Part shown: in pieces, positions 5,568 to 42,261 of the stretch | How positions within the stretch are numbered: the stretch's first letter is position 1 | How the letters are laid out: every line of letters starts with the position of its first letter | NCBI RefSeq assembly: GCF_000482245.1 | Contig: NZ_AWNH01000044.1 | Span: 1 to 42,306, forward strand | Direction of reading: 5' to 3' | Length of the DNA stretch: 42,306 bases | Origin: Leptolyngbya sp. Heron Island J | GTDB taxonomy: Bacteria; Cyanobacteriota; Cyanobacteriia; Phormidesmidales; Phormidesmidaceae | Translations under genes and position numbers: made by a program | Notes under the pieces: generated by a model | What the model was told of the DNA's origin: nothing | The model's input: only the letters and a program-made list of their open reading frames with translations | Databases searched by the model: none

Positions 5568-6113
5568 TTAATCCAGCATCAAAGTGTGTTCCGCGCTGAC
5601 AAAACGCTGATAGGCCCGAGCTGAGCCAACCTGTTTCAGCACGTTGCCTGTTTTTGGCAAAGTTCCCTGCCGTAATCCCAAATAGTCCGAATAACTGGAA
5701 AATTCCCATTCTTCAGGGCGTTCTGTTAAGCCTGCCTTCACTGGGTTCAAATGAATATACCGAGATAAATGTAGCAAGTAGGCATCACTATCTACCAAGA
5801 TTGCTTGAAATCTACCTTGAAAGATTGAGCCGCAGCGTCCATAGCGTTTATTCATCGCCTTAGTGTAGGACAATGTAAATGCCTGCATTTTTTTGGAAAA
5901 GTCACTCTGGCGTAAATACACTAAAAAGTGATAGTGGTTCGGCATCAGACAATAGGCGTTGACATCCAAGGTGCTATCCACGAGGTAATAGCGAAATCGT
6001 CTCAGGAAAAAGAGATAGTTCTCTCGCTCAAAGAAGATCTTTTGTCGATTGTTACCTCGATTGTATAGGTGATAGTGTTGCCCTGGTAAGAATGCTGTCT
6101 TGCGCCGTGGCAT
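5568..6113 (-). CDS. REP-associated tyrosine transposase (RAYT, Y1/HUH family)
   Basis: Single-strand DNA nuclease/transposase of 181 residues. The HUH motif is seen in LMPNHYHFLV (His-Tyr-His), preceded by the family opening QHYHLYNRGNNRQKIF. The catalytic Tyr is expected in the segment YLLHLSRYIHLNPVKAGL, which carries the family's conserved IHLNPVKA block. C-terminal EEWEFSSYSDYLG is also typical. RAYTs act on REP hairpins, and here hairpins with shared CCCCGGTTTCT cores flank the gene on both sides. The gene looks intact, so it may be active or recently acquired. Confidence 0.92.
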   Translation of the reverse strand: MPRRKTAFLPGQHYHLYNRGNNRQKIFFERENYLFFLRRFRYYLVDSTLDVNAYCLMPNHYHFLVYLRQSDFSKKMQAFTLSYTKAMNKRYGRCGSIFQGRFQAILVDSDAYLLHLSRYIHLNPVKAGLTERPEEWEFSSYSDYLGLRQGTLPKTGNVLKQVGSARAYQRFVSAEHTLMLD

Positions 6114-6241: not shown

Positions 6242-9200
6242 CTACTCTGCTGGACAAAGCTCGGCTAAAGGGATGCTGGTCGCTTGAGAAGAATTACGAC
6301 ATTGTTGTTGGTACTCGGCTTCTGGTGCAGTGTTTCTAATATCTCTAAGCACACCTTGAATCCATTCAATTACACTATCACTTCTGAATGTAAGGCCCAG
6401 GGACTCATAAACATTGAAAGCATCGTACAGAGGAGATAGAGCTTGAATACTATTCTTTTGCCTAGCCAAAGTATCTCCGATATTCCAAAGTGTGGTCCCT
6501 TCTTCTGTGCGATTACCCACCTCACGATGAATTGCTAAGGCCTGTTTGTAATGACTCAGAGCCTCATCATAGTTTTCTTGAGCACGATAGATACCTCCAA
6601 TATTGTTGAGGGTGATTCCTTCGCCAGCACGATCGCCCACCTCACGAAGAATTGCCAAGGACTCTTCGTAATAGGCCAATGCCTCACCATACTTCCCTTG
6701 ATTGTTATACACTTTGCCAATGTTCTGGAGAGTGACGCCTTCGCCGGCGCGATCGCCTACCTGACGAAGAATTGCCAAGGACTCTTCGAGATACCTGAGG
6801 GCCTCGCCATAGTTTCCTGGAGCACGATAGATGCTGCCAATGTTGTTGAGGATGATTCCTTCGCTGGCGCGATCGCCTACCTGACGAAGAATTGCCAAGG
6901 ACTGTTCGTAATACCTGAGGGCCTCGCCATAGTTTCCTTGATTGTCATAGACTAAGCCAATATTGTTAAGAGTGTTACCTTCGCCAGCGCGATCGCCGAC
7001 CTCGCGACGAATGGCTAAGGACTGTTGGTAATAGCTTAGGGCCTCTGAATATAGAGATCGATTTAGATATGTGTCTCCAATCTGGTTCAGGCTAACAGCT
7101 TCTCCACTACGGTTACTGATCGTCTGATGAATATCCAGTGCTTGCTCGTAATAGCCTAAAGCTTCCAAAGGTTGGCCTTGATCCTCATATAATTGACCAA
7201 TGGTCAGACGCATGTCGCCCTCGCCCGCTTTATCTCCTAATTCATACAAAAGATCTAAAGCCAAACGATAGTTATTCAGGGCTGCATCATAGTCATACTG
7301 TCCAGCTCTGATTTGTCCAACACCTCGCAAACTGTCACTTTGACCTTTAGTATCCTGAATCACTCTAGACAATTCTTGAGTATATTCATAGATACCTAGA
7401 GCCTCATTATCATCACCCTGATGTCTTTTAATATCAGCTATTTTTCTAAGCAGTTCGGCTTCTCCAAAACTATCTTCAATAGCCTCAGCAATTTCTACTG
7501 CCTGTCTATAATGCTCTAGAGCCCTATCTGTCTGCCCCTGAAAGTCATACACATCCCCCATGTAACTGAGGATTTGGCCTTCCCCAATTCGATCTTTGAT
7601 AGCTATGGCAATCTCTAAACTCTCCTGATGGGTCTCTAAAGCTTGCTTTGGCTTTCCTGTGGCTAAATAAACACGCCCCAAATTCATCAGAGCCTGACTC
7701 TCTCCTAATTTATCTTTAATCTCTCGTGTGATTTCTAAATGCTGTTGATGAAACTCCAAAGCTTGTGGATATTTACCTTGGTTATACAGCACCTCACCCT
7801 TGTTTCCTAGAGCTTGCGCCTCTCCTTGTCGATCTTGAATTTGCGTTGCAATAATTAAGTGCTTCTCATGAGCCTCTAGTGCTTCGGGATAACGACCAAG
7901 AATGTTATGCACTTCTCCCAGATTGCCATGGGAGTAGGCCTCTCCTCTCTTATTCTGGGTCTTTTGAGTTTTTTCTAATCCCTCCTCTAGATAATCAATT
8001 GCATCTCTCAGGCCACCCAGTTCATAAAAAGTATTTCTAAACCGTTGTAATCCCAACGTACCAATAGAAAACCGTAACGCTTCTTGAACTTCATTTCTAC
8101 GCCTAACCGTCGTATTAAGTAGCCTGTTGGTTTCTTGTAGATTATCCTCCTGGATAATTCTCTCTTGTTCTAAGTCGTTGACATTTTGTTCTAGTGAATC
8201 AAGTTCAGACTGAGCTCCTGCTAGCTGGATTTGAATATGTCCCAACTGGCTATTTTTAGCGTCTAAATTCTGATTAAGCCCCGTAACCTGTTCACGAATA
8301 GTTTCAGCTTGTTGTTTGGCTGTTTCTGCGTCTGCTAATGCTATTGTTGCCTCTTCAGTAACCTCTGCATTTACTTCAGTTAACTGCTCATTTACTTCTG
8401 AAAGATCTTCGTTATTTTCAAGCAGATCAGTATTTCGTATCTCTAATCTTTCGAGTGATTTTTGAGTTGTTAACAACTCTAATTCTGAGTCTTTAGCAAT
8501 TTCCCTCGCTCTACGGGCTTCCTCTCCCTGGGCAAGTGCATGGTTCCCAGACCAAAATGCTCCTGCTAAAGCCATACTTACTAGGCTTATTCCTATTCCA
8601 GTAGTCCAGCGAGCTTGTCGATTAATACGCTTGAGGTCTGCTTTAGCATCCGCTAACTCATCATCAGCCCGCTGAATTGCTTTATTCTTCGTATTCAACA
8701 ACTGCGTCTGCTGCGCCACTGTTGTCTGCACCGCCGCCAGTTCAGCCCGTAATCCCAGCTTCTGGCTCTCTACCAAATACTCATAGTCCTGCTTACCCAA
8801 ACTACGAGATTCCGACCAATCCAGCGCGTCAGTCAGTTCTTCTCCCTGCAACAACAAACTATCCTGCGGGGCTGCCACCCAGGCGTTTAACTTTTCCCCA
8901 TAGGGCCGAATACTGGTTAACGCATCCTGTATCCAATCCTGGGTAAAGACTGCCTTGTAAATGGGGTTATACACTTGTAAGGCCCCGTGCTGTTCCACCA
9001 CCAAGCCGGATAACCGCAGTGCCATTTGCTTTGAGCTACCATCCTGAGGAATCTGACCTTGCTGAATAATCTCTTGATACAGGCTCAGTAACTGGCCTGC
9101 CCGTGCATTGTTTCGTAATCGGTCTCGAATGGTTTTTAAGTGAGGCGGTTCATCCTGTATTTCCCAGTTATCAATAATGTGGGTATGCACCACCTGGGCC

Positions 9201-10018
9201 ACCAACTCATCAGCATTGAGCTGGCTATGTTGCTGCCGTTGTGCTGCTTGAATCACCAGCTGGCAAACTTTCTGGGTCAAAAAGGGTTGTCCTCCAGTCC
9301 AATGCAGCACCGCCTGTAGCACTGCTTCTGGATTGCTCACTGTTGCTAATCCTGGCAGCAGCGGTGCGGCCTCATTAAACTTAAACCCTGTCAGTTGGAT
9401 GGCTCGACCAACGTTAAACGGAGTTCGTTCTTTGGCTCGGATCAAATCTGTGGGTGTGGCTACACCGATCAGCGCAAACGTTAGCCGATTGAATTCAGGA
9501 TGATCAGCTCGATTGTTGTAACACTCCCGAATCACGGCAAAGAAATCATCGGCGTCAAATTCCAGACTGAGAACGCTGTCGATCTCATCTAGAAAAATAA
9601 CAATGGGCTGAGCAATTGTCTGCAGTAACACGTTGCTCAGGAATTTCCCAAATCGACGCACTGGTGGCAGATGATGGTTTACTTCCCACCAGTCATCCAG
9701 GTCAAAGTCTGGAGTCAGCTGGTCGATCTGTAATCGATCCACCAGACTGTCGATCACACCGAAATACCATTCTGCTGGTTCGATAGTCGTGGTGCCCAGG
9801 CCGCTGATATCCAACGATGCGCAGGCTACTCCTTCTGCTTGTAATCGATTAGAGGTGCGCACCCGCAGACTCGACTTGCCCATTTGTCGAGAGTTGAGTA
9901 CATAGCAAAACTCCCCTGCTTTTAGCGCCTGGTAAAATTCTTCGTCTGCCGCACGCTTAACGTAGGTTTGTGCATCTGGCGGGAGGCTACCGCCCACTTG
10001 ATATCGATACTCAGCCAT
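6242..10018 (-). CDS. AAA-like STAND ATPase with TM segment, coiled coil and 13 TPRs
   Basis: Large protein of 1258 residues. The N-terminal AAA-like domain (AAA_35 type, about 1-370) has a Walker A-like NSRQMGKSS (42-50) and a Walker [13 protein letters not shown] (about 138-149). A single membrane segment around 470-490 ([14 protein letters not shown]) is followed by a long Glu/Gln-rich coiled coil (about 495-660). Then come 13 tandem 40-residue tetratricopeptide repeats (about 685-1210). Such STAND proteins are thought to be signal switches: TPRs sense or scaffold, and the NTPase drives assembly. The later repeats are nearly identical (GDRAGEG...[13 protein letters not shown]), which suggests recent expansion. 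The neighbouring upstream gene carries a related AAA-like domain fused to a CHAT protease, so the two may work together. Confidence 0.9.
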
Positions 10019-10143
10019 GGTCTTTTCAGGGTGTTTGCATCAGGAAAGTAACCGTCTTACAAACGTTTTCCCTTGAGCGGAGTCTAAGGGATCGTTTAGG
10101 GATGTGCGCGAGAATAAGAACTGCGTTGTGAGGTTCAGCGATA

Positions 10144-10352
10144 TTTGGTTCCCCTTGCCAAGGCTACGGTTTACACACAAGTCATCGGAAAGTCGCTTAG
10201 CTTCTGAAAGCCCCCTAAATCCCCCAATTCTGGGGGACTTTGAGTTGGATTCCCCCCCAGAATTGGGGGGACTAAGGGGGGCCAATGCAGGATTTTGAGC
10301 TTGAGTCCGAGATGTGTGTACACGGTAGCCTTGCCAAGGGGAACCGTTAGGG
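10144..10352. repeat. Nested inverted repeat, MITE-like
   Basis: An outer pair (GGTTCCCCTTGCCAAGGCTAC near 10147 and its approximate complement ending GCCTTGCCAAGGGGAACC near 10348) encloses an inner pair (GCCCCCTAAATCCCCC at about 10210 and GGGGGGACTAAGGGGGGC at about 10263-10281). The open reading frames in this 460-base gap are by-products of the repeats. The structure resembles a non-autonomous palindromic element inserted between the two AAA-like genes. I saw no target-site duplication. Confidence 0.6.
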
Positions 10353-10478
10353 AGGGGTCTGGAGAGCTTGCACCAATGATCGAGGAACCCTCCGCCTTCG
10401 GCACCTCCCCTTACTAAGGGGAGGATGTTACTCAAAGAGTTTTTATTACGGATTTGATTAACGTTCAATTACTTAACC

Positions 10479-12155
10479 TCACAAACGAGATTGGAAATAT
10501 TGCCGGTACAAACCACATAAAGGGACTACAGCATTGCCGTCATACTTCACCAGGCCCATGCTGTGCAGCTTAAACGCTTCCGTTGAGCCAATTTGCACTG
10601 GCTGATAGCTGGGAATAACCTGCTTAAAAGCATTAAGCAAATCCGAATCAGCTTCTAGATTGAGCAAATGTCGCCGCAGATGATCGCTGTACAAACCTCC
10701 TTCGGTGGGTGCTTCTTCCATCAGCTGGGTCAGACTTATGCGTCCTCGTGCCAGCTGGTAAAGGGCTGCTCGCAGTAGATAAGGATGTCCTCCCACCAGT
10801 TCTACTAGCTGTTGTTTTTGATAGGAGGTCAGGCTCATCTGATGACGCGAAATCAGTGTTTCGATTTCGTCCGTATTTAACTCCCGCAGCTCAATCGGTA
10901 GACCTACATTAAACGGTGAGCGGTTGATACTGAGGGGAACGTAAACCTCTTTGGAATGGACAATGACCAGATTTAGCTTGCGCCAGATCGGGTTGGTTTT
11001 GCCTTCTTCGTGCCATACCCGCAACATGCCAAAAAAGTCTGTGGCGATTTGAGGATGCTCAAATACCTGGTCTACTTCATCTAGACCCAGCACCAGGGGC
11101 TGGTCTAGCTCCTGTAGCAAGTACTTTTCAAAGTACCGCTGACAGCGACGTACAATGCCCCGTGCTCCTTTCCAATAGTCTGCTAGTCGATCTTCTAGGT
11201 CTAGTTCCTCGGTGACGCTGCAGCAAAACCACTGTAGAAATTCATCCAGGTCATTGAGGGTTTCGTTGTCGGAGGTTTGAAAACTCAGACGTACGGTTTC
11301 AAACCCCTGAGATCTGGCATGGGATAACGTTCTGACCAATAGCGATGTTTTACCTAGCTGTCGGGGGGCTTTAATCCGAATTAACGAACCGGGTCGCAAT
11401 ACGGTTTCATAGCAGTCGGTTTCAATCGGTAACCGTTCTATGTAGAAGGGTGAGTCTAACGGTACTAAGCCTTCTGGTTCTTCAAGTGTTACGGACTTTT
11501 CAGCAGGAGCTGGGCTTTTATCTATGTCCGTTGCTTCTGTGGCGGCAGATTCTGATTTAGGTAGCTTTTGCGATATGTCAGGTTCTTCTGCTAACCCTTT
11601 ACGCACTTTCAGAATAGGCGGGCTGACTTCATCAATTCCTTCGAGGGCAATGGCTGAGAGGCCAACTTTGTAGGCAAACGGTACTGGATGGCCATAGCCC
11701 AGGGCATCGTAAAATCCGACGGCAAATTCAATGGCTGCTCTATCCCCCATGGCGTCGGTCATGCCGACTACATAGTCGACGTGCTCGACAACAGCTTCTG
11801 CCTGTACCTGGGAATAACAGGCATTAAAAAGGACGCATTCTACCTTTGGAAAAAGACTAAATAGACGTGATAAGGCGATCCCGCTTACAGGTTTGGCTGA
11901 ACCGGTATCGCTTTCTAGAAGCAGTCCCTCGGTGCCAGCTCCGTGACCTGAGAAGTGGACGATTTCGGGTTTGTATTTGAGTAGGGCACGGCGTAAGTCG
12001 TCTGGTCGAGTTGCCCACTGTGACACTACCTTAAAGCTGTCGCGTTCTGCTGACAGGTTCAACCCTTCTTGGATTTCACGAACTTCTTCGTCTAAACGTA
12101 AACGGCTGGTATCTGAAGGATTAGCCGTCAAGATTAGGATCGTTTTGGCTGCCAT
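10479..12155 (-). CDS. CHAT caspase-like protease fused to AAA-like STAND domain
   Basis: Protein of 558 residues from ATG 12155. The longer frame from 12230 adds 25 residues, but family members begin with MxxKTILILTANP. The CHAT domain (about 1-190) has the catalytic pair: His71 in IVHFSGHG and Cys113 in VLFNACYSQ. A linker rich in Glu/Pro/Ala (about 195-235) leads to an AAA-like domain (about 240-558) with Walker A APRQLGKTS and Walker B VLGLDEVDQVF. CHAT enzymes are caspase-related cysteine proteases, often kept inactive until a fused or partner sensor detects a signal. The downstream gene on the same strand has a similar ATPase domain joined to TPRs. A role in stress signalling or phage defence is inference. 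Confidence 0.9.
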   Translation of the reverse strand: MAAKTILILTANPSDTSRLRLDEEVREIQEGLNLSAERDSFKVVSQWATRPDDLRRALLKYKPEIVHFSGHGAGTEGLLLESDTGSAKPVSGIALSRLFSLFPKVECVLFNACYSQVQAEAVVEHVDYVVGMTDAMGDRAAIEFAVGFYDALGYGHPVPFAYKVGLSAIALEGIDEVSPPILKVRKGLAEEPDISQKLPKSESAATEATDIDKSPAPAEKSVTLEEPEGLVPLDSPFYIERLPIETDCYETVLRPGSLIRIKAPRQLGKTSLLVRTLSHARSQGFETVRLSFQTSDNETLNDLDEFLQWFCCSVTEELDLEDRLADYWKGARGIVRRCQRYFEKYLLQELDQPLVLGLDEVDQVFEHPQIATDFFGMLRVWHEEGKTNPIWRKLNLVIVHSKEVYVPLSINRSPFNVGLPIELRELNTDEIETLISRHQMSLTSYQKQQLVELVGGHPYLLRAALYQLARGRISLTQLMEEAPTEGGLYSDHLRRHLLNLEADSDLLNAFKQVIPSYQPVQIGSTEAFKLHSMGLVKYDGNAVVPLCGLYRQYFQSRL

Positions 12156-12354
12156 GGTGCTTGGCAAAATTGGGGGGCTAATAAGTCGGGTGATGCGAAA
12201 GCCTGTTTTTACTCTAGTTTCTGACGACAAGATATTATCGGCAGCTTAACTAAATATCTTGATATAGCTTGCTGCTGAGCGTCTATTACCCATCAGGGTG
12301 AGCTTTGCCACAAACCGGGTTTCGACTTCGCTCAATCCTCCATTTTTGCCTAAT

Positions 12355-22411: not shown

Positions 22412-22900
22412 CTAGCTAAGAGCGTTGATTGCATAGTCAAGGTAAGCATTCGCCTCAGTAGCAGGCTGACCACTTAAACCATGGCTAGACTTAATGTACT
22501 TGAGTGCTTCAATGTACCAGCTAGGAGACAACTCGTAGGAACGGTTAATCTCATCTAGACCAGCAACCAGATACTCGTCCATGGGGCCAGTGCCACCTGT
22601 TACCAAGCAGTAGGTGACCATGCGGAGGTAGTAACCAATGTCACGAACGCACTTATCCTTACCACGCTGGTCTGAAGCAAAGCTAGGTCCGGGCGTAGTA
22701 GTTGTGAAAGGAAACTTGCTGTAGACCGCTTGAGCAGCTCCAGAGCAGAGGCTATCAGCCTTTCCAGACAGTGCCTTAGCAGCTTCCAAGCAAGCGCTAG
22801 CACGCTGGAAACGACCAAAAGCAGACTGGATTTCGGTGGAACTCAGGAAACGACCTTGCGAATCAGCAGCGGATACTGCTTCAGTCAGAGGGGTTTTCAT
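22412..22900 (-). CDS. cpcA: C-phycocyanin alpha subunit
   Basis: 162 residues from ATG 22900; the start is set by the invariant [19 protein letters not shown] and a GGGAGAT ribosome-binding site upstream, not by the longer open frame to 22981. The chromophore Cys84 is in [20 protein letters not shown], with Asp87 for bilin N contact. Family end LDYAINALS is intact. It forms the alpha/beta monomer, trimer and hexamer discs of phycobilisome rods with CpcB. Cys37 and Cys52 are extra cysteines relative to the CpcA sequences I recall. Lyases cpcE/cpcF follow. No rod-linker gene (cpcC/D) follows directly, unlike most cpc operons. Confidence 0.98.
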
Positions 22901-23017
22901 TGCTTGAGATATCTCCCAAAGTTTTCTAAATCGATGGACAGAAAGAGAGGTATTGATTAGAGAACTCCCATTATCTGCCAATTACCAAACTCGCTAAAAG
23001 CTATTTAGAGAATTAGC

Positions 23018-23536
23018 TTAAGCAACTGCTGCTGCTGCGCGGTCAAAGTAACCGGCAATCTCAGCCATCAGGCTGGAACAGTCACCCGAAGTAATACCAT
23101 TGGAATCATTAGCGATCGCAATGGCAGCTTCCTTCATCTTCTGAACACCAACAGCAACTGAAGCACCAGGAGTACCAAGAGCCAGATAAGTCTCACGAAG
23201 ACCGTTCAAGCAGCGATCATCCAGTACGCTAGCGTCACCAGTGAAAACAGAGTAAGTCACATAGCGGAGGATGATCTCCATGTCGCGTAGGCAAGCAGCG
23301 TTACGACGGCTAGTGTAAGCGTTACCACCAGGAGCAATTAGTGAAGGCTGCTCGGCAAACAAAGCGCGAGCGGCGTTAGTTACGATAGCGGACGCATTGC
23401 TGGTAATACGGTTAACCGCATCCATACGCTTGTTGCTGTCAGCAACCATTGCCGATAAAGCGTCCAATTGAGCACTGCTGAGATATTCGCCTCTTGCATC
23501 AGCCTGGGAGACGACCTTAGCAAACGCATCAAACAT
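23018..23536 (-). CDS. cpcB: C-phycocyanin beta subunit
   Basis: 172 residues beginning [19 protein letters not shown]. Two bilin cysteines are present: Cys82 in [11 protein letters not shown] (the beta-82/84 site, normally loaded by S/U-type lyases) and Cys153 in [10 protein letters not shown] (T-type lyase site). Asn72 in GGNAY is the usually methylated asparagine. A strong AGGAGAG ribosome-binding site precedes the ATG. cpcA follows after about 117 bases. The 577-base untranslated region upstream points to a strong regulated promoter and a long leader. Confidence 0.98.
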
Positions 23537-29032: not shown

Positions 29033-29608
29033 ATGTCATCGTCCCTCAGTCCTCGGGTCAAAGAACTCATTGTTAAGGCACGGATTGTCAGTTTTGATGG
29101 CTGGCAGGATGAATTTGGAGAGGGTGCGATCGCGCTACTCCAGTCGGCTGATGATGAACGAGTTTACTTAGATGATGCGGGCTTAAAAGATATGCCAGCT
29201 GGCAAGATTTCCCGTTATCTGCGTGATCATGCGAATGCCATTGTGGATACTGCCCGAGCCCAGGTTTTGGCTCAGTTTCCTGGCATTACCGAGTCAGGTG
29301 GTGGCTTATATCCAGTGGCAAGGGCGGAAGCCTGCTGGCGAGATTTCTGGCATTTTTTGCGCTGTATCACCTATGGCATAGCAGCTCAACGTACCGATTA
29401 CACTAGCGCCACTGGTCTATCCTACCTGGAGCAGCTTTATCAAGAACTCCAGGTGCCTTTGGATGCCATGGTTTACGGTCTTCAAGCTCTGCAAGCTGCT
29501 AGTAAAGAGCAACTCGCTAAGCTGGAATTTACCATCACTGACGAGCAGATAGAGCCTTACTTTGAGCATCTCATTATTGCCCTGAGTCGTTTTCAAGCAG
29601 TTACTTAA
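29033..29608 (+). CDS. Orphan phycobiliprotein-like protein (AplA-type candidate)
   Basis: 191 residues with a phycobiliprotein globin fold but clearly not a CpcA/B, CpeA/B or core subunit. The middle aligns with CpcB: HANAIVDTARAQVLAQFPGIT, then GGGLYP, then ARAEACWRDFWHFLRCITYGIA, matching [16 protein letters not shown]. So the bilin-type Cys, Arg and Asp (C-x-R-D) are all kept. The N-terminal 50 residues and the C-terminal end differ from antenna proteins. Fremyella AplA is a known non-antenna phycobiliprotein of this sort, and I suggest this relation without proof. It is followed by an ankyrin gene after 24 bases and is divergent from a HEAT-repeat gene. Confidence 0.75.
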   Translation: MSSSLSPRVKELIVKARIVSFDGWQDEFGEGAIALLQSADDERVYLDDAGLKDMPAGKISRYLRDHANAIVDTARAQVLAQFPGITESGGGLYPVARAEACWRDFWHFLRCITYGIAAQRTDYTSATGLSYLEQLYQELQVPLDAMVYGLQALQAASKEQLAKLEFTITDEQIEPYFEHLIIALSRFQAVT

Positions 29609-30828: not shown

Positions 30829-31689
30829 ATGGCTTTTGGACCAGCTTCACGATTGGGCGTGAGCCTTTTCGACGAGACCCCTCCAGTCGAGTGGGTTCCT
30901 GGCCTTGATAGTGAGGGCTTCGAGTCTATTATCAAAGCCGTCTATAGACAGGTTTTAGGTAATGCCTATGTGATGGAAAGCGAACGCCTCGCTGTACCCG
31001 AATCCCAGTTTAAGCGTGGTGAACTGACTGTGCGGGACTTTGTGCGTGCCGTGGCTAAGTCTGACATGTATCGCGCCCGCTTCTTTGAGAGCTGCCCCCG
31101 TTACCGCAATATTGAGCTTAACTTCCGCCATTTGCTTGGTCGGGCTCCGAACGGTTTTGAAGAAATGAAGGCTCATAGCGCCATTTTAGATACAGAAGGC
31201 TTTGAGGCTGACATTGATTCTTACATTGATAGTGACGAGTATCAGGATGTCTTTGGACAGGATTTTGTCCCCTATATTCGTGGCTACAAGACTGAAGCAA
31301 GCAATATGGTTGGCTTCACCCATACCTTTGAATTAGTACGCGGTGCTTCCAGTAGCTCTTTGAAAGGGAGTGTCAATGGTAAGAAGCCTCGTCTGAACTC
31401 ATTGGTAATCAACGCTATACCAGCACCTGTCCTCTCTCCGCTGTCCGCTGGTGGGACCTTCCAGACTCCTCCTGATTCTTCTCGTACTCGCCATGGTGTT
31501 GGTGCTAGTGCTAATGGGAAGATTTATCGAGTCGAGGTCACTAGCTATCGCTCCAATGCCTTTAACCGCGTGTCTAAGTTCCGTCGCGCCAATAAGGTAT
31601 ATATGGTTCCCTTTGACAAATTGTCTGATGAGTATAAGCGGATCCATAAGCAGGGTGGTGTGATTGCTAGTATCACTCTCGTTTCCTAG
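30829..31689 (+). CDS. cpeC: Phycoerythrin rod linker, CpeC type
   Basis: 286 residues. The opening ASRLGVSLFDETPPVEWVPG leads into one phycobilisome linker (REP, pfam00427) domain (about 30-175) with YRQVLGNAYVMESERLAVPESQFKRGELTVRDFVRAVAKS and IELNFRHLLGRAP. A C-terminal CpcD-type domain (about 230-286) reads IYRVEVTSYRSNAFNRVSKFRRANKVYMVPFDKLSDEYKRIHKQGGVIASITLV. The REP sits inside a phycoerythrin hexamer and the CpcD end contacts the next disc. It opens the cluster as cpeC opens cpeCDESTR in Fremyella; the CpeC name rests on that place and my memory of the N-terminus. Confidence 0.85.
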   Translation: MAFGPASRLGVSLFDETPPVEWVPGLDSEGFESIIKAVYRQVLGNAYVMESERLAVPESQFKRGELTVRDFVRAVAKSDMYRARFFESCPRYRNIELNFRHLLGRAPNGFEEMKAHSAILDTEGFEADIDSYIDSDEYQDVFGQDFVPYIRGYKTEASNMVGFTHTFELVRGASSSSLKGSVNGKKPRLNSLVINAIPAPVLSPLSAGGTFQTPPDSSRTRHGVGASANGKIYRVEVTSYRSNAFNRVSKFRRANKVYMVPFDKLSDEYKRIHKQGGVIASITLVS

Positions 31690-31742: not shown

Positions 31743-31806
31743 GTCGTTGTTTCAGATCGTTTATGTGTTGAGAACATCTTTTCAAAACAACAGTAGGAGA
31801 TTTCCA

Positions 31807-32547
31807 ATGACAACGTATGAGTTGTGGCCTGCGAGCAGCAGCGAAGATAAGCAGGCAATTATTCGTGCTGTATATCGCCATGTCTTGGGTAACCCCCACG
31901 TAATGGACAGTGAGCGCTTGGTAAGCGCTGAGTCTCAGTTTTGTGATGGCACTATCTCTGTTAGAGGTTTTGTTCGTGCAGTTGGTAAGTCTGATTTTTA
32001 CCGCAGTCGCTACTTTGAGAAGTGTGCTCCTTATCGCTTTGTGGAGCTAAACTTCATGCACTTTTTGGGGCGTGCTCCTGAGAGCCAAGCAGAGCTTTCT
32101 GAGCATATTCGTCGCTGTGTAGAAGAAGGCTACGATGCTGAAATTGATTCCTACATCGATAGCGATGAGTACCAGGCTCGCTTTGGTGAGAATGTGGTGC
32201 CGTTCTACAATGCGAATCTGACTCAAGTGGGTCAGTCCCAGGTTAGCTACAACCGCATCTTTGCAATTGACCGCGGTCCCGCTCAGGTGAGCAGTGCTGT
32301 TAAATCAGCTCAATTGGTGGCTCAAGTGGCTGGTACTGAGAAGGGTAACAAGGTTAAGGCTGCGGCAACTAACTTGAATTCCGGAACAACCAAACGCTTC
32401 AAGATTAAGACGACAGCAGCTAAGTTTGATGCTCCTCGTCGCGTCAGTATGAACGAGTACATCGTATCGGCTGATAAGATGACGCCGCAGATTCAGCGTA
32501 TTCACCGCACAGGTGCCAAGATCGTTAGCATCACTGAGATTGTGTAG
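31807..32547 (+). CDS. Phycoerythrin-associated rod linker, CpeD/CpeE type
   Basis: 246 residues from ATG 31807 (MTTYELWPASS), chosen because AGTAGGAGATTT gives a good ribosome-binding site and an upstream ATG at 31747 adds 20 unrelated residues. One REP domain (about 10-155; HVLGNPHVMDSERLVSAESQF, VELNFMHFLGRAP) and a C-terminal CpcD-type domain (about 195-246; KRFKIKTTAAKF to IQRIHRTGAKIVSITEIV) are present. It is the second linker of the cluster, in the cpeD position. It has MHFLGRAP where most paralogues here have KHLLGRAP. Confidence 0.88.
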   Translation: MTTYELWPASSSEDKQAIIRAVYRHVLGNPHVMDSERLVSAESQFCDGTISVRGFVRAVGKSDFYRSRYFEKCAPYRFVELNFMHFLGRAPESQAELSEHIRRCVEEGYDAEIDSYIDSDEYQARFGENVVPFYNANLTQVGQSQVSYNRIFAIDRGPAQVSSAVKSAQLVAQVAGTEKGNKVKAAATNLNSGTTKRFKIKTTAAKFDAPRRVSMNEYIVSADKMTPQIQRIHRTGAKIVSITEIV

Positions 32548-32827: not shown

Positions 32828-35782
32828 ATGATTAATAACACTTTGTTTCGCCCTACAGTCATCAAGGCTAACCGAAAAAAGTTTAATCCTGAAGGCTTTG
32901 ATCTAGCCGCGGCTCTAAAGAAGCGAAAAGCAGCTGAAGCGGTTAAAGCGGCGACTCCTCCCACGGCTGACTTCGATGTCCAGAAAAACTACATAACATC
33001 GTTTTCAGATACTCAGCCTGTAGAATGTATCAGCACGACATCGGTTTCAGACCTAGATGTAGTCATTCGTGCTGCCTACAGGCAAGTATTTGGCAATGCC
33101 CATCTGATGGAAAGTGAGCGGGCTGTCATCGCCGAATCTCAGCTACGTAAAGGCGAAATTACAGTATTAGAATTTGTTCGCCAGTTGGCCAAGTCCGATC
33201 GCTACCGTGCTGTATTTTTTGAAAACTGCCCTAACATCAGGGCGGTGGAATTAAATTTTAAGCATCTGCTCGGGCGTGCCCCTGAAAATAATGCCGAAAT
33301 TTCTCAGCATATTCAAATTTTGGCCGAGGGCGGTTTTGATGCCGAAATTGATGCTTATCTGGATAGCGACGAATATTTTCAGGCTTTTGGCACAGATATT
33401 GTCCCCTACTATCGTGGCCATAAAACGCAGACGGGTAAGTCAGTTTCTGGGTTTACCCATTCTTCCCAGCTGGTTAAAGGGGCATCTAGTAGCGATAAGT
33501 CCATTGAGAGTAATACCGCGCCGCAAATTCAAGCTGGACTGCTAGGTGGTACGCCGACTGAGATTAAGCCACTGGCCACACTGCCATTCTCCACACCTGT
33601 CATTCCACCACAGGAATATAAGCAGCCTGAGAAGGAACTGACTAAGGAAGACTATATTCCTGTTTATAAGTCAGCTTCATTTTTGGCAAAGCCGGTTACC
33701 CCCAGCGAGTGGGTTAAAGAGTATAACGCTAAGCAGGCGGCGGCTACCTTCCCTGCGGCTCGCTCTAGCCAGCCCGTCAAGCTCTATGCAGGGGCTGGCA
33801 ATGAAGATAAGGAGATTCTGATTCGCACAGCCTACAAACAGGTGTTTGGTAATGTTCATCTGATGGAAAGCCAACGCCTGCTCACGGCTGAGTCCCAGTT
33901 TAAAGATGGGACTTTGACTGTTAAGGAGTTTGTGCGTGCCCTGGCTAAGTCGGATGCTTATCGGGCTCTGTTTTTTGAGAGCTGCTCTAATGTTCGAGCG
34001 GTTGAATTGAACTTCAAGCATTTACTGGGTCGTGCTCCTGACAATTTTAAGGAAGTCTCTAAGCATCTTGGTATCCTTGCTGAAGGTGGTCTAGGAGCTG
34101 AAATTGATTCCTACTTTGACAGCCCAGAGTATGACCAGAACTTTGGTGCGGATACGGTGCCTTACTACGTGAGCTATGCAACGCAAACGGGTAAGAATGT
34201 TGCCGGTTACAATCGCATCTTTGAGCTGGTTAAAGGGCTGTCCAGTAGCGATCGCTCTATCTCTGATTCGATTCAGACCAGTCAGCGATCTCAGCTACAA
34301 AAAGATCTAGTTAAGACCTTCAAAGTAAAGCAAGAAAACGTTTTCAACCCCAAGGGTTTCCAGTTGGCCAAAGTCATTGGCGCACCTGTTATTGTCGCCA
34401 AACAGGATGCTGGTTCGCCCTCTATCATTACGGCCTATACTGATTCCTTTGCTGACCAAAAACCTATTGAACTGGTTGCGGGTGATAGTACTGGCCAGAT
34501 CGATTTGGTTATAGAAGCCGCCTATAAGCAGGTGTTTGGCAATGCCCACTTGATGGAAAGTGAGCGTTTTCCCATTGCTGAATCACAACTACGCAACGGT
34601 GACATCACTGTTCTAGAGTTTGTGCGCTCTCTGGCAAAGTCAGACCGATACCGCACCCTATTCTATGAACGATGCACCAACTTAAAAACCGTTGAGTTGA
34701 ACTTCAAACATTTGCTGGGTCGTGCTCCTGAGAGTGGTGCAGAAATCTCGAAACACATTCAAATCTTGGCTGAGCAAGGCTTCTACGCTGAAATTGATTC
34801 CTATTTGGATAGCGATGAGTATTTCCAGACCTTTGGCGCTAGCATCGTTCCCTACTTCCGGGGCTATCAGACGCAGATGGGCAAAGGCATGGCTAGCTAC
34901 ACCCATTCCTTCCAGTTACTGCGCGGTGCTTCCAGTAGTGATAAGCAGCTGAGTCAGTATGGTGGTGCTGCTGTGGACCAGGCCATCCTTAGCAATAAGT
35001 CCAGCCGGATTCCTAATATCTCTGAGCAGACCGTACCAGTAGCCGATACGCGCCCACAGACCCAGCCCCCCGTTCCAGTGGTCAGTCCTGATTATTCCTT
35101 TAACCTTGAGGCGACCAGTTCCCTATCGACTGTTGAGCGCACAGCCATTTGGCAGGGACAATATAGCGCCTTTGCCAATACGGCTCCCGTCAAGCTTAAC
35201 TCTGGCGCATCTGACGAAGATGTGGAACTAGTGATTGCAGCTGTCTATAAACAGGTCTTAGGCAATGCTCACGTTATGGAAAGTGAGCGACTGACCAAGG
35301 CTGAATCCCAGCTACGCAATGGCGATTTGACTGTACGTGAATTTGTGCGCACGTTAGCTAAATCAGACCTGTACAAGTCTCTCTTTATTGAGAACTCACC
35401 TCGCTATCGCTGCCATGAGTTGAATTTCAAACATCTTTTAGGCCGTGCTCCCGAGAGCTACGATGAGACTGTTTATCACAGCGCTATTGTCGACAATCAG
35501 GGGTATGATGCCGACATTGATGCCTATATTGATAGTGAAGAATATCGAACCGCCTTTGGCGAGGATATTGTTCCTTTCTATCGCGGTTATAAAACTCAGA
35601 CTGGCAAAAATCTGTTGGGCTATATCAATATGTTCGATATGCTCACTAGCGTTTCCACTAGTGATAAAGCAGGCTCTAATCAAGCTCGGGTAGAAAAACG
35701 CCTCTCCTATGAGAATCCTGCAAAAGTTCAGCCTGTCACTGACGGTAATCTTTTGATTCAGAAGATGTTTGGGCTAATTTAA
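32828..35782 (+). CDS. Giant phycobilisome linker with four REP domains and no phycobiliprotein domain
   Basis: 984 residues. Four pfam00427-type REP domains are visible; their [12 protein letters not shown] motifs lie at residues 141, 393, 623 and 864. A short motif FNPxGFxLA occurs at 19 and 506, ahead of REP1 and REP3. REP1 and REP3 are close copies, and REP2 and REP4 share PVKL lead-ins, so the gene looks like a doubled two-REP unit of about 490 residues. There is no phycobiliprotein-like N-terminal domain as in ApcE and no CpcD tail; the end is short (DGNLLIQKMFGLI). Ordinary rod linkers have one REP; multi-REP rod-type linkers are known from Gloeobacter-like cyanobacteria. It sits inside the cpe linker cluster, so it most likely organises phycoerythrin hexamers or rod bundles. 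Confidence 0.92.
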   Translation: MINNTLFRPTVIKANRKKFNPEGFDLAAALKKRKAAEAVKAATPPTADFDVQKNYITSFSDTQPVECISTTSVSDLDVVIRAAYRQVFGNAHLMESERAVIAESQLRKGEITVLEFVRQLAKSDRYRAVFFENCPNIRAVELNFKHLLGRAPENNAEISQHIQILAEGGFDAEIDAYLDSDEYFQAFGTDIVPYYRGHKTQTGKSVSGFTHSSQLVKGASSSDKSIESNTAPQIQAGLLGGTPTEIKPLATLPFSTPVIPPQEYKQPEKELTKEDYIPVYKSASFLAKPVTPSEWVKEYNAKQAAATFPAARSSQPVKLYAGAGNEDKEILIRTAYKQVFGNVHLMESQRLLTAESQFKDGTLTVKEFVRALAKSDAYRALFFESCSNVRAVELNFKHLLGRAPDNFKEVSKHLGILAEGGLGAEIDSYFDSPEYDQNFGADTVPYYVSYATQTGKNVAGYNRIFELVKGLSSSDRSISDSIQTSQRSQLQKDLVKTFKVKQENVFNPKGFQLAKVIGAPVIVAKQDAGSPSIITAYTDSFADQKPIELVAGDSTGQIDLVIEAAYKQVFGNAHLMESERFPIAESQLRNGDITVLEFVRSLAKSDRYRTLFYERCTNLKTVELNFKHLLGRAPESGAEISKHIQILAEQGFYAEIDSYLDSDEYFQTFGASIVPYFRGYQTQMGKGMASYTHSFQLLRGASSSDKQLSQYGGAAVDQAILSNKSSRIPNISEQTVPVADTRPQTQPPVPVVSPDYSFNLEATSSLSTVERTAIWQGQYSAFANTAPVKLNSGASDEDVELVIAAVYKQVLGNAHVMESERLTKAESQLRNGDLTVREFVRTLAKSDLYKSLFIENSPRYRCHELNFKHLLGRAPESYDETVYHSAIVDNQGYDADIDAYIDSEEYRTAFGEDIVPFYRGYKTQTGKNLLGYINMFDMLTSVSTSDKAGSNQARVEKRLSYENPAKVQPVTDGNLLIQKMFGLI

Positions 35783-36260: not shown

Positions 36261-37022
36261 ATGGCACTTTGGGTAACCAATGCTGTGCCCGTTGAACTTC
36301 GCCCTAATGCAACTGAGGATGACCTGCAAACGGTTATTCGTGCTGTATATAAGCAAGTTTTAGGCAACCAGCATGTGATGGAGACTCAGCGTTTAACGAG
36401 CGCTGAGTCCCTACTGCGTGATGGCGATATCACAGTTAGAGGATTCGTCCGGGCAGTAGCCCAGTCTGAGCTATACCGCTCCCTCTTTTTTGAGAGTTCT
36501 TCGGCTTACCGCTTTATTGAGCTAAATTTTAAGCATCTACTCGGTCGTGCTCCTCAGGACCAAGCAGAAATTGCTAATCATGTCGCTCTTTATAATGAGC
36601 ATGGCTATGTAGCCGAAATTAATTCTTACATCGACAGTGATGAGTACACTGCCAACTTTGGTGAAGACCGTGTTCCATTTGTGCGCGGTAGCCAGACCCA
36701 AACCGGTGTAAAGAACGTTGGCTTTAACCGTACCTTTGCTCTGATGCGTGGTGATGCTACTAGCGATAGTAGCAACCAAGCCAAGTTAATTAGTGATATT
36801 GGCAGTAACTTGGCAACTAAGATTACCGCTCCCCAAGGAGGTACTGGTCGTAGCAGCACTAACAAGCGGTTCCGGATCACAGCAAGCACATCCAAGTCTT
36901 CAGCTGCCTTGGGTCGCGTTAGTAAGCAGGAATACGTTGTTTCTTACAACCAGATGTCCCAACGTATTCAGAGCATTCTGAAGACGGGTGGAAAAATTCT
37001 GAGCGTCACCGAAACCAACTAG
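36261..37022 (+). CDS. Phycoerythrin rod linker, CpeD/CpeE type (first of tandem pair)
   Basis: 253 residues. The N-terminal [41 protein letters not shown] leads to a REP domain (about 10-150) with [20 protein letters not shown] and [20 protein letters not shown]-terminal CpcD-type domain (about 200-253) ends [18 protein letters not shown]. It matches my memory of CpeE-type linkers best ([14 protein letters not shown]). The next gene is a close paralogue about 120 bases downstream; [16 protein letters not shown] here compares with GVKNVAFNRLFALDRG there. Confidence 0.9.
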
Positions 37023-37068: not shown

Positions 37069-37142
37069 TTGTGTTGTCAAAAGTTCCGTATGTTTCAAAC
37101 TACGGATTCATTAATCATCACTATTGTTTAGGAGAAACGGTT

Positions 37143-37895
37143 ATGTCCCTCTGGATTAATAACGAAGCAGTTGAGCTGCGCCCCAATGCCACTGAAGAGG
37201 ACTTTCAGGTCATTATTCGGGCAACCTATAAGCAGGTTTTGGGTAATGCACACGTTCTAGATAGTCAGCGTCTAGCCAGTGCAGAATCCATGCTCAAAAA
37301 TGGTGAAATTACTGTTCGTGGTTTCGTGCGGGCAGTGGCTACCTCAGATATCTATAAAGCTCGCTGCTTTGACAACTCCTCTTCCTACCGCTTTATTGAG
37401 CTGAACTTTAAGCACTTGTTGGGTCGTGCTCCTCAGGATCAATCGGAAATTTCTGAGCATGTACAAACTTACAATACGGCTGGCTATGATGCCGAAATCG
37501 ATTCTTATTTAGACAGTGATGAATATCTGTCTACCTTTGGCGAGAACGTTGTTCCCTACGCCTGTGGTACTAGCCAGACTGGTGTTAAGAACGTTGCCTT
37601 TAACCGCTTGTTTGCTCTAGATCGTGGTTACGCAGCCAATGACACTGGCAAGGGAGCCAAGCTGATTAGTGATGTTGCCGGTAATTTAGGCACTAAAATC
37701 AAGTCACCTGCTACTGGTTCAGGTGCCTATAGCAATACTGGTAAGCGTTTCCGCATTGTTGCCACTAAGGCCAACTTTGGCGCTCGGGTGACTAAGAGTA
37801 ACTACAGTGTAGAAGTTGGTTTTAGCCAGCTCTCTAACCGAATTCAGAACATGCAGCGTTCTGGTGCCAAGATTGTCAGCATTTCAGAGGTATAA
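37143..37895 (+). CDS. Phycoerythrin rod linker, CpeD/CpeE type (second of tandem pair)
   Basis: 250 residues from ATG 37143, chosen for the AGGAGAAACGGTT ribosome-binding site and the paralogue-like start [24 protein letters not shown] domain about 8-150 ([41 protein letters not shown]) and C-terminal CpcD-type domain about 195-250 (KRFRIVATKANFGARV; IQNMQRSGAKIVSISEV). It is clearly a tandem duplicate of the preceding gene with divergence in the linker region. The second copy may occupy a different disc position in the rod. Confidence 0.9.
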   Translation: MSLWINNEAVELRPNATEEDFQVIIRATYKQVLGNAHVLDSQRLASAESMLKNGEITVRGFVRAVATSDIYKARCFDNSSSYRFIELNFKHLLGRAPQDQSEISEHVQTYNTAGYDAEIDSYLDSDEYLSTFGENVVPYACGTSQTGVKNVAFNRLFALDRGYAANDTGKGAKLISDVAGNLGTKIKSPATGSGAYSNTGKRFRIVATKANFGARVTKSNYSVEVGFSQLSNRIQNMQRSGAKIVSISEV

Positions 37896-38494: not shown

Positions 38495-39022
38495 ATGGAT
38501 ATTGAAACCTTTGTCGAACGCTCACTCGGTGAATGGCGATCGCAGCGTAGTGCCCATCACTTGGCATTTAGTCATTTTGAAGAAGTCCGCTCCACTATCA
38601 ATATTGAATCGCTAACCATTGATGATCCCGGAGTGATAGATCTGTGTCAGCGTTATGAGGTTTCTCCTGAGGTGATTGTCAGTCCTTTCAAAATGAGTTG
38701 GGAAGGGGAGTCGGACTGGGATGAAGAGCAGGTGATCGAAGGATCGACTATTCTAGTACCTGTACCCGATAGTGCAACGACCGGTAAGCTATTGCGCGAG
38801 CAGGGCTATGCAGAAACCATGGAGTCGGTTGGTTCCTATTGCCTGACCGATGATGGGACGTTTATTTTGACTACGGCCTACGACCGGGCGGCGGCGGAAG
38901 AAAAGATTTGGTTTGCGACTCCGAACCTACGATTTCGGGTTTCTTTAATTAAGACTAGCAGTGGCAAAGGGGTGACTACAGCTAGTTTCTCATCAGAAGT
39001 CAGACGTGGGGTTAAAAGCTGA
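38495..39022 (+). CDS. cpeS: Phycoerythrin beta-subunit bilin lyase CpeS
   Basis: 175-residue S-type (lipocalin-fold) lyase. Opening MDIETFVERSLGEWRSQRSAHHLAFSHFEEVRSTINIESLTIDDPGVIDLC, then FKMSWEGESDWDEE, GKLLREQGYAETMESVGSYCLTDDGTFILTTAYDR and EKIWFATPNLRFRVSLI match the CpeS group. In Fremyella CpeS attaches phycoerythrobilin to Cys82 of CpeB. Here that residue is Cys80 of the cpeB gene at the end of the window. It occupies the cpeS place between the linkers and cpeT of the cpeCDESTR order, but is bracketed by two CpcD-type genes. Confidence 0.88.
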   Translation: MDIETFVERSLGEWRSQRSAHHLAFSHFEEVRSTINIESLTIDDPGVIDLCQRYEVSPEVIVSPFKMSWEGESDWDEEQVIEGSTILVPVPDSATTGKLLREQGYAETMESVGSYCLTDDGTFILTTAYDRAAAEEKIWFATPNLRFRVSLIKTSSGKGVTTASFSSEVRRGVKS

Positions 39023-39152
39023 CCACTAGTGGCATGGTTAATTTCTCAGAAATTACTTTACTACTGAGAGACTTGCAGTTTTGTCAAGTAGACCTGCGAT
39101 TTTTGCAAATGGCGCTATCCTTGGAGACACTTTCTATTCAGAGGAAACTCCT

Positions 39153-39491
39153 ATGGTAGGTATTACCGGCGGCTCTGCCTTAAGTGATTATCGTTCACGA
39201 TCGGTCGTGATTGAGGTAGCTGGCATGGCAAATCAGACGATTTCCAGAGTTAGTAATTACCAAGTCAAGGTTCCTTTTAGCCAGCTGTCAGCAGCGCTTC
39301 ATACTATTTCGTGCCAGGGTGGCAAGGTGGTCAATGTTGACATTCAAGGGGGGCAATCACAGGATGCTGTTCAGCCGACGGCTTCAGGAACAGCTGCTCC
39401 AGCTAGCGATCAGAAAGTTGCTCATAAGGCGAAAAATATAATCTCCCGTTTAACTGGTCGGAAAGGGCGACGGTCTAAGAAAACGTCTTAG
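39153..39491 (+). CDS. Second solo CpcD-type linker with basic tail
   Basis: 112 residues from ATG 39153, chosen for AGGAAAC before it; the frame opens at 39081 without family similarity. The CpcD domain (about 8-65) reads RSVVIEVAGMANQTISRVSNYQVKVPFSQLSAALHTISCQGGKVVNVDI. It is followed by an unusual extension of about 45 residues, first Ala/Ser/Thr/Gln-rich and then strongly basic (HKAKNIISRLTGRKGRRSKKTS). The basic end is not normal for a capping linker and might bind another phycobilisome part or a membrane surface. A strong terminator follows. Confidence 0.85.
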   Translation: MVGITGGSALSDYRSRSVVIEVAGMANQTISRVSNYQVKVPFSQLSAALHTISCQGGKVVNVDIQGGQSQDAVQPTASGTAAPASDQKVAHKAKNIISRLTGRKGRRSKKTS

Positions 39492-39832: not shown

Positions 39833-40447
39833 ATGGTGCTTTCCGGCAATACTGACGTCTCTTACTCACAGGATTTTACAACCCTTGCTCGTTGGATGTC
39901 CGGGGACTTTAGTAATCAACAGCAAGCGTTTGACGATCCCAGAAAATTTGCCCACATTCGGATCTTTTTTCGTCCCCTTCCCTACGAGTTCTTTTCGGGT
40001 GTCGGGCTATATTCTGAGCAAACTCAGGACTATGACCTATGGAGTCCTTATCGACAAGGTGTACATCGTCTTGTTGATCAAGGGGAGCATGTTTACATTG
40101 AAAATTATGGTCTCAAGGATCGGTTACTCTATGCCGGAGCTGGCCATAATCTAGATATTCTAAAGACCATTACCCCTGACTGTATCGAACGACGAGAAGG
40201 CTGTTCGATGGTGTTTAAGCGTGAGGGCGATGCGTTTATTGGCAGCGTAGAACCTGGTAAAGCTTGCATTATTCCCAAGAAAGGCAAGATGACCTATCTC
40301 ACCAGTCATGTGGAAATCACTGAAAGCACATGGATGAGCATTGACCAGGGCATGGATGTTGAAACCGATGAATATGTATGGGGCTCGACTGAGGGAATTT
40401 TAAAGTTCCATAAGCGGGCCAGTTTTGATAATGAATTACCTTTCTGA
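39833..40447 (+). CDS. cpeT: T-type bilin lyase CpeT
   Basis: 204 residues of the CpcT/CpeT family (DUF1001-type barrel). Key blocks are TTLARWMSGDFSNQQQAFDDPRKFAHIRIFFRPLP, QTQDYDLWSPYRQGVHRLV, VYIENYGL, and ERREGCSMVFKREGDAFIGSVEPGKACIIPKKGKMTYLTSHVEITESTWMSIDQGMD, with the GCSM and W-SIDQG motifs typical of the family. T-type lyases attach bilin to the third beta-subunit site, here expected to be Cys165 of CpeB. Its end overlaps the start of cpeR by 23 bases. Confidence 0.93.
   Translation: MVLSGNTDVSYSQDFTTLARWMSGDFSNQQQAFDDPRKFAHIRIFFRPLPYEFFSGVGLYSEQTQDYDLWSPYRQGVHRLVDQGEHVYIENYGLKDRLLYAGAGHNLDILKTITPDCIERREGCSMVFKREGDAFIGSVEPGKACIIPKKGKMTYLTSHVEITESTWMSIDQGMDVETDEYVWGSTEGILKFHKRASFDNELPF

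Positions 40448-40814: not shown

Positions 40815-41694
<880 letters not shown>

Positions 41695-41712: not shown

Positions 41713-42261
<549 letters not shown>

Follow-up and report, generated by a model that had tools for sequence, protein, structure and literature searches.

A four-REP linker of the CpeC-type lineage in Leptolyngbya sp. Heron Island J, a candidate phycoerythrin tether

A 42,306-nucleotide stretch of DNA from the cyanobacterium Leptolyngbya sp. Heron Island J (contig NZ_AWNH01000044.1; the whole stretch is here called the window) encodes a 984-residue linker protein in which four REP (PF00427) domains follow one another in a single chain. Judged by their place in REP phylogenies, these domains are of the CpeC-type phycoerythrin linker lineage, with an origin separate from that of the multi-REP linkers of Gloeobacterales. 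By analogy with those described linkers, the chain could be a base-type linker that tethers several phycoerythrin hexamers or rod bases side by side, a role to which we give about an even chance.

Four REP domains in one chain

The gene and the parts of its protein lie as follows.

32828..35782, plus strand: four-REP linker gene, 984 aa (open frame, ATG start, PF00427 four times, no PF00502, no PF01383)
32882..32899, plus strand: FNPEGF motif in the N-terminal arm, residues 19-24 (motif scan)
33044..33415, plus strand: REP domain 1 (PF00427, E 3.2e-51)
33800..34168, plus strand: REP domain 2 (PF00427, E 8.8e-47)
34343..34360, plus strand: FNPKGF, a second copy of the motif, in the arm preceding REP 3, residues 506-511 (motif scan)
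34490..34861, plus strand: REP domain 3 (PF00427, E 1.1e-48; 76% identical to REP 1)
35210..35584, plus strand: REP domain 4 (PF00427, E 1.5e-49)

A Pfam scan finds PF00427 in four stretches of the chain (E 2.3e-198; whole-protein score 648.6 bits, gathering score 28.7), and each place passes the cut-off singly in a profile search of the genome, with E-values from 3.2e-51 to 8.8e-47. The original prediction had read four such domains from copies of a 12-residue motif, which do start at residues 141, 393, 623 and 864, exactly where it placed them. It also held that the chain has no phycobiliprotein domain, and neither this domain (PF00502) nor CpcD (PF01383) was matched in the chain by Pfam or home-made profiles. 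The four REPs share 55-76% identity, REPs 1 and 3 being the closest pair, and are separated by arms of 128, 106 and 117 residues. The chain exceeds the NCBIfam CpcG2 cut-off (432.5 bits against 420), but this score is spread across four stretches.

We placed the REPs in two trees. In the first (140 REPs), ApcE, CpcG-type and rod-type REPs form separate groups: a branch of 120 REPs with support of 98 includes the four-REP chains and all 46 CpcD-bearing single-REP linkers (singles), 12 CpcD-less singles, three CpcG-type among them, are in a separate group (99), and three ApcE REPs, on long branches, fall outside the branch of 120. The second tree has 124 REPs and 128 columns, few enough that its finer branching is uncertain. 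It leaves out 26 REPs for their long branches or as outgroup (3 ApcE, 11 CpcG/CpcL-like or other CpcD-less singles, all 8 from genome G119 and 4 from G288) and adds 10 CpcC REPs. This tree separates 59 rows from the other 65 (bootstrap 95; Shimodaira-Hasegawa-like approximate likelihood ratio test 85). The 59 rows comprise all 12 from four-REP chains, all 11 from the genus that belong to the tail family described below, all 21 from other CpcD-less multi-REP chains of crown cyanobacteria, 12 of the 41 CpcD-bearing cpe-type singles (these make up the CpeC type), a pair of CpcD-less singles and a single REP from a two-REP chain that ends in CpcD. The CpcN, CpcJ-like and Gloeobacter multi-REP chains contribute 19 rows, which group with the 12 CpcC rows (99/96), the latter named by their position beside cpcBA. 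This phylogeny, which the original prediction had proposed as a check, thus sets the four-REP rows with CpeC and the Gloeobacterales rows with CpcC; multidomain CpeC-like and CpcC-like proteins are grouped likewise in PMC11976284.

Approximately unbiased (AU) tests, between groups that we named with the first tree already in view, rejected a common origin with Glr1262 and CpcN. Forcing the 12 four-REP rows together with the 19 Gloeobacterales rows gave a p-AU of 1.6e-5, and with these plus the 12 CpcC rows 2.5e-5; with the CpcC rows alone p was 2.1e-6, a less fair comparison that also splits CpcC from its Gloeobacterales neighbours. The frames of CpcN (1242 aa) and Glr1262 were identified by near full-length PDB matches, those of the Glr2806 type (L100) and CpcJ-like chains by length and REP number only.

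Further chains stood out in these trees. A locus (L097) of G119, probably Aurora, encodes two- and three-REP chains, five of whose REPs lie outside both the CpcC-like and the CpeC-like multi-REP groups of the first tree. In G096, the REPs of a two-REP chain with CpcD (L113:3939-5537, plus strand) group with different single-REP linkers of that locus, and this chain appears to be two rod linkers fused into one.

REP number between constant termini

Among eight genomes of the genus, including the window's own, the four-REP gene is present in seven: five copies are full length and two (G001, G007) are fragments at contig ends. It was not found in the eighth, G002. Carriers include Leptolyngbya sp. 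PCC 7375 and Adonisia turfae CCMR0081. The full-length orthologues in four other genomes are 82-86% identical to the protein of the window, and all four REPs are well conserved across the five. Against these four orthologues the nonsynonymous rate (dN) is 0.08-0.11 and the synonymous rate (dS) 1.5-1.9, which is near saturation, giving a dN/dS of about 0.04-0.07. The gene is under strong purifying selection.

We then looked at the two ends of these linkers in 388 genomes, a draw from the class rather than the entire class. The surveys scored up to 16 candidates per genome for the N-terminal arm (N-arm), up to 10 for the tail and up to four in a further survey, and their counts are lower bounds. 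A profile of the N-arm (MINNTLFRP...NRKKFNPEGFDLAA) matched in at least 7 of the 388 genomes. Five of these belong to the genus and have four REPs; G332, from a different genus of the family, has three, and G168, from a different family, has one. The single-REP protein of G168, 273 residues long, has the N-arm fused to a stretch that corresponds to residues 270-496 of the window protein, which precede and contain REP 2, at 64% identity.

The other terminus comes from a partner protein, a 784-aa three-REP linker without CpcD, encoded on contig C37 just past the window end (L016:3842-6196, minus strand). Its C-terminal tail defines a family found in at least 51 of the 388 genomes at E <= 1e-5, some of the matches being weak. 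The 30 loci that we fetched have one REP in 17 cases, two in eight and three in five; these last five are clipped in the fetched stretches, and their REPs were counted from full frames. No CpcD or phycobiliprotein domain was matched in any of the 30 tail-bearing frames. Frames were taken from stop to stop, and open-frame lengths are unreliable where neighbours are in frame. Thus, REP number changes while the termini stay constant. By eye, the tail of the 784-aa linker looks coiled-coil-like, and in several other families the relatives that bear it carry one or two REPs.

The C-terminus of the four-REP chain was compared with 11 of these tails. The z score was 6.5 for one (G101), 2.4-3.5 for the three-REP tails of the genus and below 2 for 7 of the 11, with a control of 4.7 for a CpeC tail against the G003 orthologue. 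REP 4 groups with two tail-family REPs in the second tree (98/87), and an AU test did not reject keeping REPs 1-4 together with their nearest rows (p 0.24). Given these z scores, the control and the AU result, we do not claim a separate, tail-family origin for REP 4.

Parts of this are already in print. The Methods of PMC11976284 (2025) name multidomain CpeC-like proteins of Leptolyngbya, U9W1D6 and U9W8A0, give them "about three" domains, leave their function open and group them with CpeC; they are probably the four-REP protein and its 784-aa partner, the strain assignment being our own. That passage does not mention the absence of CpcD, the termini, the copy-number series or the genome context. 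Within the passages of the literature that our search covered, we did not meet a four-REP architecture without CpcD, the two terminus-defined families or the copy-number series, and none of the papers in the literature listings dealt with the shape of phycobilisomes in this genus.

A possible tether and its rivals

The closest known linkers are those of Gloeobacterales. In Gloeobacter violaceus, which is without CpcG, cryo-electron microscopy (cryo-EM) has been used to assign the three REPs of Glr1262 to three rod bases, in phycocyanin, and the three of Glr2806 to auxiliary hexamers at the core, with REP 1 seen and REPs 2 and 3 expected (PMC12525769). In Anthocerotibacter panamensis, CpcJ holds two hexamers with its two REPs, and the five-REP CpcN holds a chain of five phycocyanin hexamers, of which the outer two were too mobile to model; its authors found no homologue above 50% identity outside Aurora and describe CpcN as absent from crown cyanobacteria (PMC10696076). 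With CpcN, the original prediction's view that multi-REP linkers are known with three REPs is incomplete, and four is no record. CpcN is also the best PDB sequence match of the four-REP chain, and a profile scan found no CpcD match in the CpcN and Glr1262 frames. Glr1262 and Glr2806 (CpcJ/CpeG in older naming) resemble the four-REP chain in their several REPs, long arms and lack of CpcD and phycobiliprotein domains, but differ in having three REPs, in grouping with CpcC and in their phycocyanin placement. CpcN and CpcJ are likewise CpcD-less and multi-REP, but their REPs group with CpcC and they bind phycocyanin.

On the phycoerythrin side, MpeD of marine Synechococcus shares with the four-REP chain the presence of more than one linker domain in a phycoerythrin-associated chain; MpeD, with two such domains, has been proposed to be the equivalent of a pair of rod linkers that adds a disc within the rod (PMC2246261). 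The three MpeD-like two-REP chains that we scanned (G096, G288, G358) each have a terminal CpcD domain, and the chains from two marine Synechococcus-like genomes, which we take as MpeD, are in this respect unlike the four-REP chain. The rod linkers CpeC, CpeD and CpeE have REP ancestry in common with it but possess one REP and a CpcD domain, whereas CpcG and CpcL linkers are CpcD-less like it but have REPs of another lineage.

How could such a chain work? If it is a tether, each REP would occupy the cavity of its own hexamer, most likely of phycoerythrin, and the arms would keep the tied hexamers side by side, as a chain or as a rod bundle, while the CpcD-bearing single-REP CpeC/D/E linkers may extend each rod outward. 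The N-arm with its FNPxGF motif, repeated ahead of REP 3, may dock to the core or to neighbouring hexamers. The number of hexamers tied would follow REP number, which with this N-arm has been one, three or four in the course of evolution.

The same architecture could also serve as an in-line ruler, with the REPs in four successive discs of one phycoerythrin rod and the chain fixing rod length. Sequence cannot decide between tie and ruler. MpeD, in its proposed role, would be a precedent for a REP-REP junction without an intervening CpcD (PMC2246261), and the arms of the four-REP chain are similar in length to those of CpcD-ended two-REP chains. However, we favor tying, because the described CpcD-less multi-REP linkers of the rod side (Glr1262, Glr2806, CpcN, CpcJ) sit laterally or at rod bases, placements that are in part inferred by their authors, and because the MpeD-like chains keep the terminal CpcD that the four-REP chain does not have. 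The cpe cluster, moreover, already supplies four CpcD-bearing rod linkers for the stacking of discs. A ruler therefore seems to us rather unlikely. We regard as unlikely, too, a rod-core linker of a second type of phycobilisome, with the REPs in basal hexamers and the arms on the allophycocyanin core, replacing CpcG in some light regime. Such a linker would be CpcD-less, as the CpcG-type singles are; Glr1262 and Glr2806 have been given this role in the CpcG-less Gloeobacter (PMC12525769), and Leptolyngbya sp. Heron Island J shows chromatic acclimation (PMC3916487). However, the genome retains three CpcG-type singles, so the plain rod-core role is already filled; the REPs are CpeC-like, neither CpcC- nor CpcG-like, and no counterpart of the N-arm was found beyond 7 of the 388 genomes.

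Two other explanations can be weighed more briefly. A protein that brings phycoerythrin hexamers together as an assembly scaffold or in the manner of a chaperone, and is absent from the mature phycobilisome, would suit a gene that lies outside the cpe cluster in five of its seven carriers, but each of the four REPs is well conserved among the five full-length orthologues, and we know of no REP protein with such a role; we find it very doubtful. A split or degenerate ApcE is hardly credible. It has in its favor a similar length, three to four REPs per chain and an ApcE chain as the top Foldseek match by E-value. Yet an intact ApcE of 897 residues, with its phycobiliprotein domain and three REPs, is encoded on contig C106, and those three REPs lie outside the 98-supported branch. 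The alternative that the original prediction had itself raised, a split ApcE with REPs among those of ApcE, is thereby refuted. In the other carriers, frames with weak matches of 898-899 (G001, G004, G005, G006), 803 (G007) and 539 aa (G003) are probably ApcE or parts of it, by size and score.

Several observations weigh against the tether, or at least soften the case for it. The analogy with Glr1262 is itself soft in one step, since the assignment of its REPs to one chain was made from incomplete density as "the most reasonable option" (PMC12525769). The Glr1262 gene adjoins cpe-type linker genes, yet its protein is placed in phycocyanin; similarly, CpeC ancestry suggests phycoerythrin as the partner of the four-REP chain without proving it. 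The location of the gene inside the cpe cluster, as first described, holds for the window and G006, two of the seven carriers. The other five (G003, G004, G005, G001, G007) share a different locus, visible on one flank only in G001 and G007. In G004 the genes of this locus include those for a DNA ligase, an aminotransferase and RibD, and 6 of 10 scanned neighbouring open reading frames gave Pfam matches, none of them from phycobilisome families. Arm length does not tell tether from ruler: arms are 106-128 residues in the four-REP chain, 109-120 in CpcD-ended two-REP chains and 97-109 in CpcN. Finally, an AlphaFold2 model from a 16-row alignment is of low overall confidence (mean predicted local distance difference test score, pLDDT, 56; predicted TM-score 0.27). 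In favor of the tether, the model has ordered blocks at about 63-197, 315-448, 545-678 and 786-919, and the arms (pLDDT <50) are predicted to be disordered. Its top Foldseek matches by E-value are chains of ApcE, which comes first, Glr1262 (9k9w_a9) and CpcN (8imn_5), with whole-chain TM-scores of only 0.15-0.17, as expected with floppy arms; the single-REP crystal structure 3pru_C is covered at a TM-score of 0.97.

It is tempting to go a step further. Crown cyanobacteria may have independently evolved multi-rod tethers for phycoerythrin by copying and losing REPs between constant termini, with REP number as a dial for the rods bundled, and a bundled phycobilisome shape, of a kind so far undescribed in this group, would then be expected. 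We offer this tentatively, thinking it somewhat less probable than not. Multi-REP tethers have been described as specific to, or relics in, the thylakoid-free Gloeobacterales (PMC12525769, PMC10696076). If a separately derived phycoerythrin tether does exist in crown cyanobacteria, bundle-like antenna architectures arose more than once. The natural series of one, two, three and four REPs, which includes strain PCC 7375, lets particle shape be compared with REP number.

The cpe cluster and other linkers of the genome

The right part of the window is a cpe cluster with pebB, pebA, four single-REP linkers with CpcD, the four-REP gene, cpeS, cpeT, cpeB and cpeA. The four-REP gene lies upstream of cpeS, cpeT, cpeB and cpeA and has CpcD-bearing cpe-type singles on both sides, which, with the CpeC-type position of its REPs, agrees with its earlier placement among phycoerythrin linkers.

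30829..31689, plus strand: presumptive CpeC-type rod linker, one REP and CpcD (PF00427 and PF01383, tree position)
31747..32547, plus strand: presumptive CpeD/E-type rod linker, one REP and CpcD (PF00427 and PF01383)
36261..37022, plus strand: presumptive CpeD/E-type rod linker, one REP and CpcD (PF00427 and PF01383)
37071..37895, plus strand: presumptive CpeD/E-type rod linker, one REP and CpcD (PF00427 and PF01383)
38495..39022, plus strand: CpeS-type bilin lyase (PF09367)
39833..40447, plus strand: CpeT-type bilin lyase (PF06206)
41140..41694, plus strand: cpeB, phycoerythrin beta (NF058508 over cut-off)
41767..42261, plus strand: cpeA, phycoerythrin alpha (NF058506 over cut-off)

The names CpeC, CpeD and CpeE are presumptive, based in part on the gene order behind Glr1262. 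Of the light-regulation patterns scanned, the L-box gave three matches (5.4 expected) and the G-box none, with no match near the four-REP gene.

The last 1103 bases of the window are identical to the first 1103 of C37. Farther along C37 come a CpcL-like gene, a CpcD-less linker of 318 aa with one REP (L016:2739-3695, plus strand) and the 784-aa linker. In G006 one contig bears the four-REP gene, the CpcD-less single and the three-REP gene, in that order; therefore, the window contig and C37 very likely adjoin. The REP of the 318-aa linker falls in the trees with REPs 1-3 of the four-REP protein, and by eye the tail of this linker is similar to one in G332, on a two-REP chain (L108:7380-9047).

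The whole assembly (8,063,028 bases, 119 contigs) has 22 PF00427 matches. Besides the linkers above, these include two CpcC-type linkers, each with a single REP and CpcD, beside a cpcBA on contig C112. The three CpcG-type singles score 214-250 bits with the best CpcG model, under its cut-off, in one stretch beginning at profile position 1 or 2. Two CpcL-type singles have a common long branch in the first tree and terminate in hydrophobic stretches.

Other genes of the window may be noted. A 136-aa protein (39081-39491, plus strand) has a weak CpcD match and is possibly a rod cap or another REP-binding protein. Ahead of the linker genes, a divergent PF00502 protein of 191 aa (29033-29608, plus strand; E 3e-37, below every phycobiliprotein equivalog cut-off) is followed by an ankyrin-repeat gene. 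A cpcBA pair (22412-23536, minus strand) has HEAT-repeat lyase-like genes adjacent. Farther to the left are an IS200-like transposase and two AAA_35 genes (5568-6113 and 6242-12230, both minus strand), of which one AAA_35 gene carries a long TPR array and the other matches CHAT weakly.

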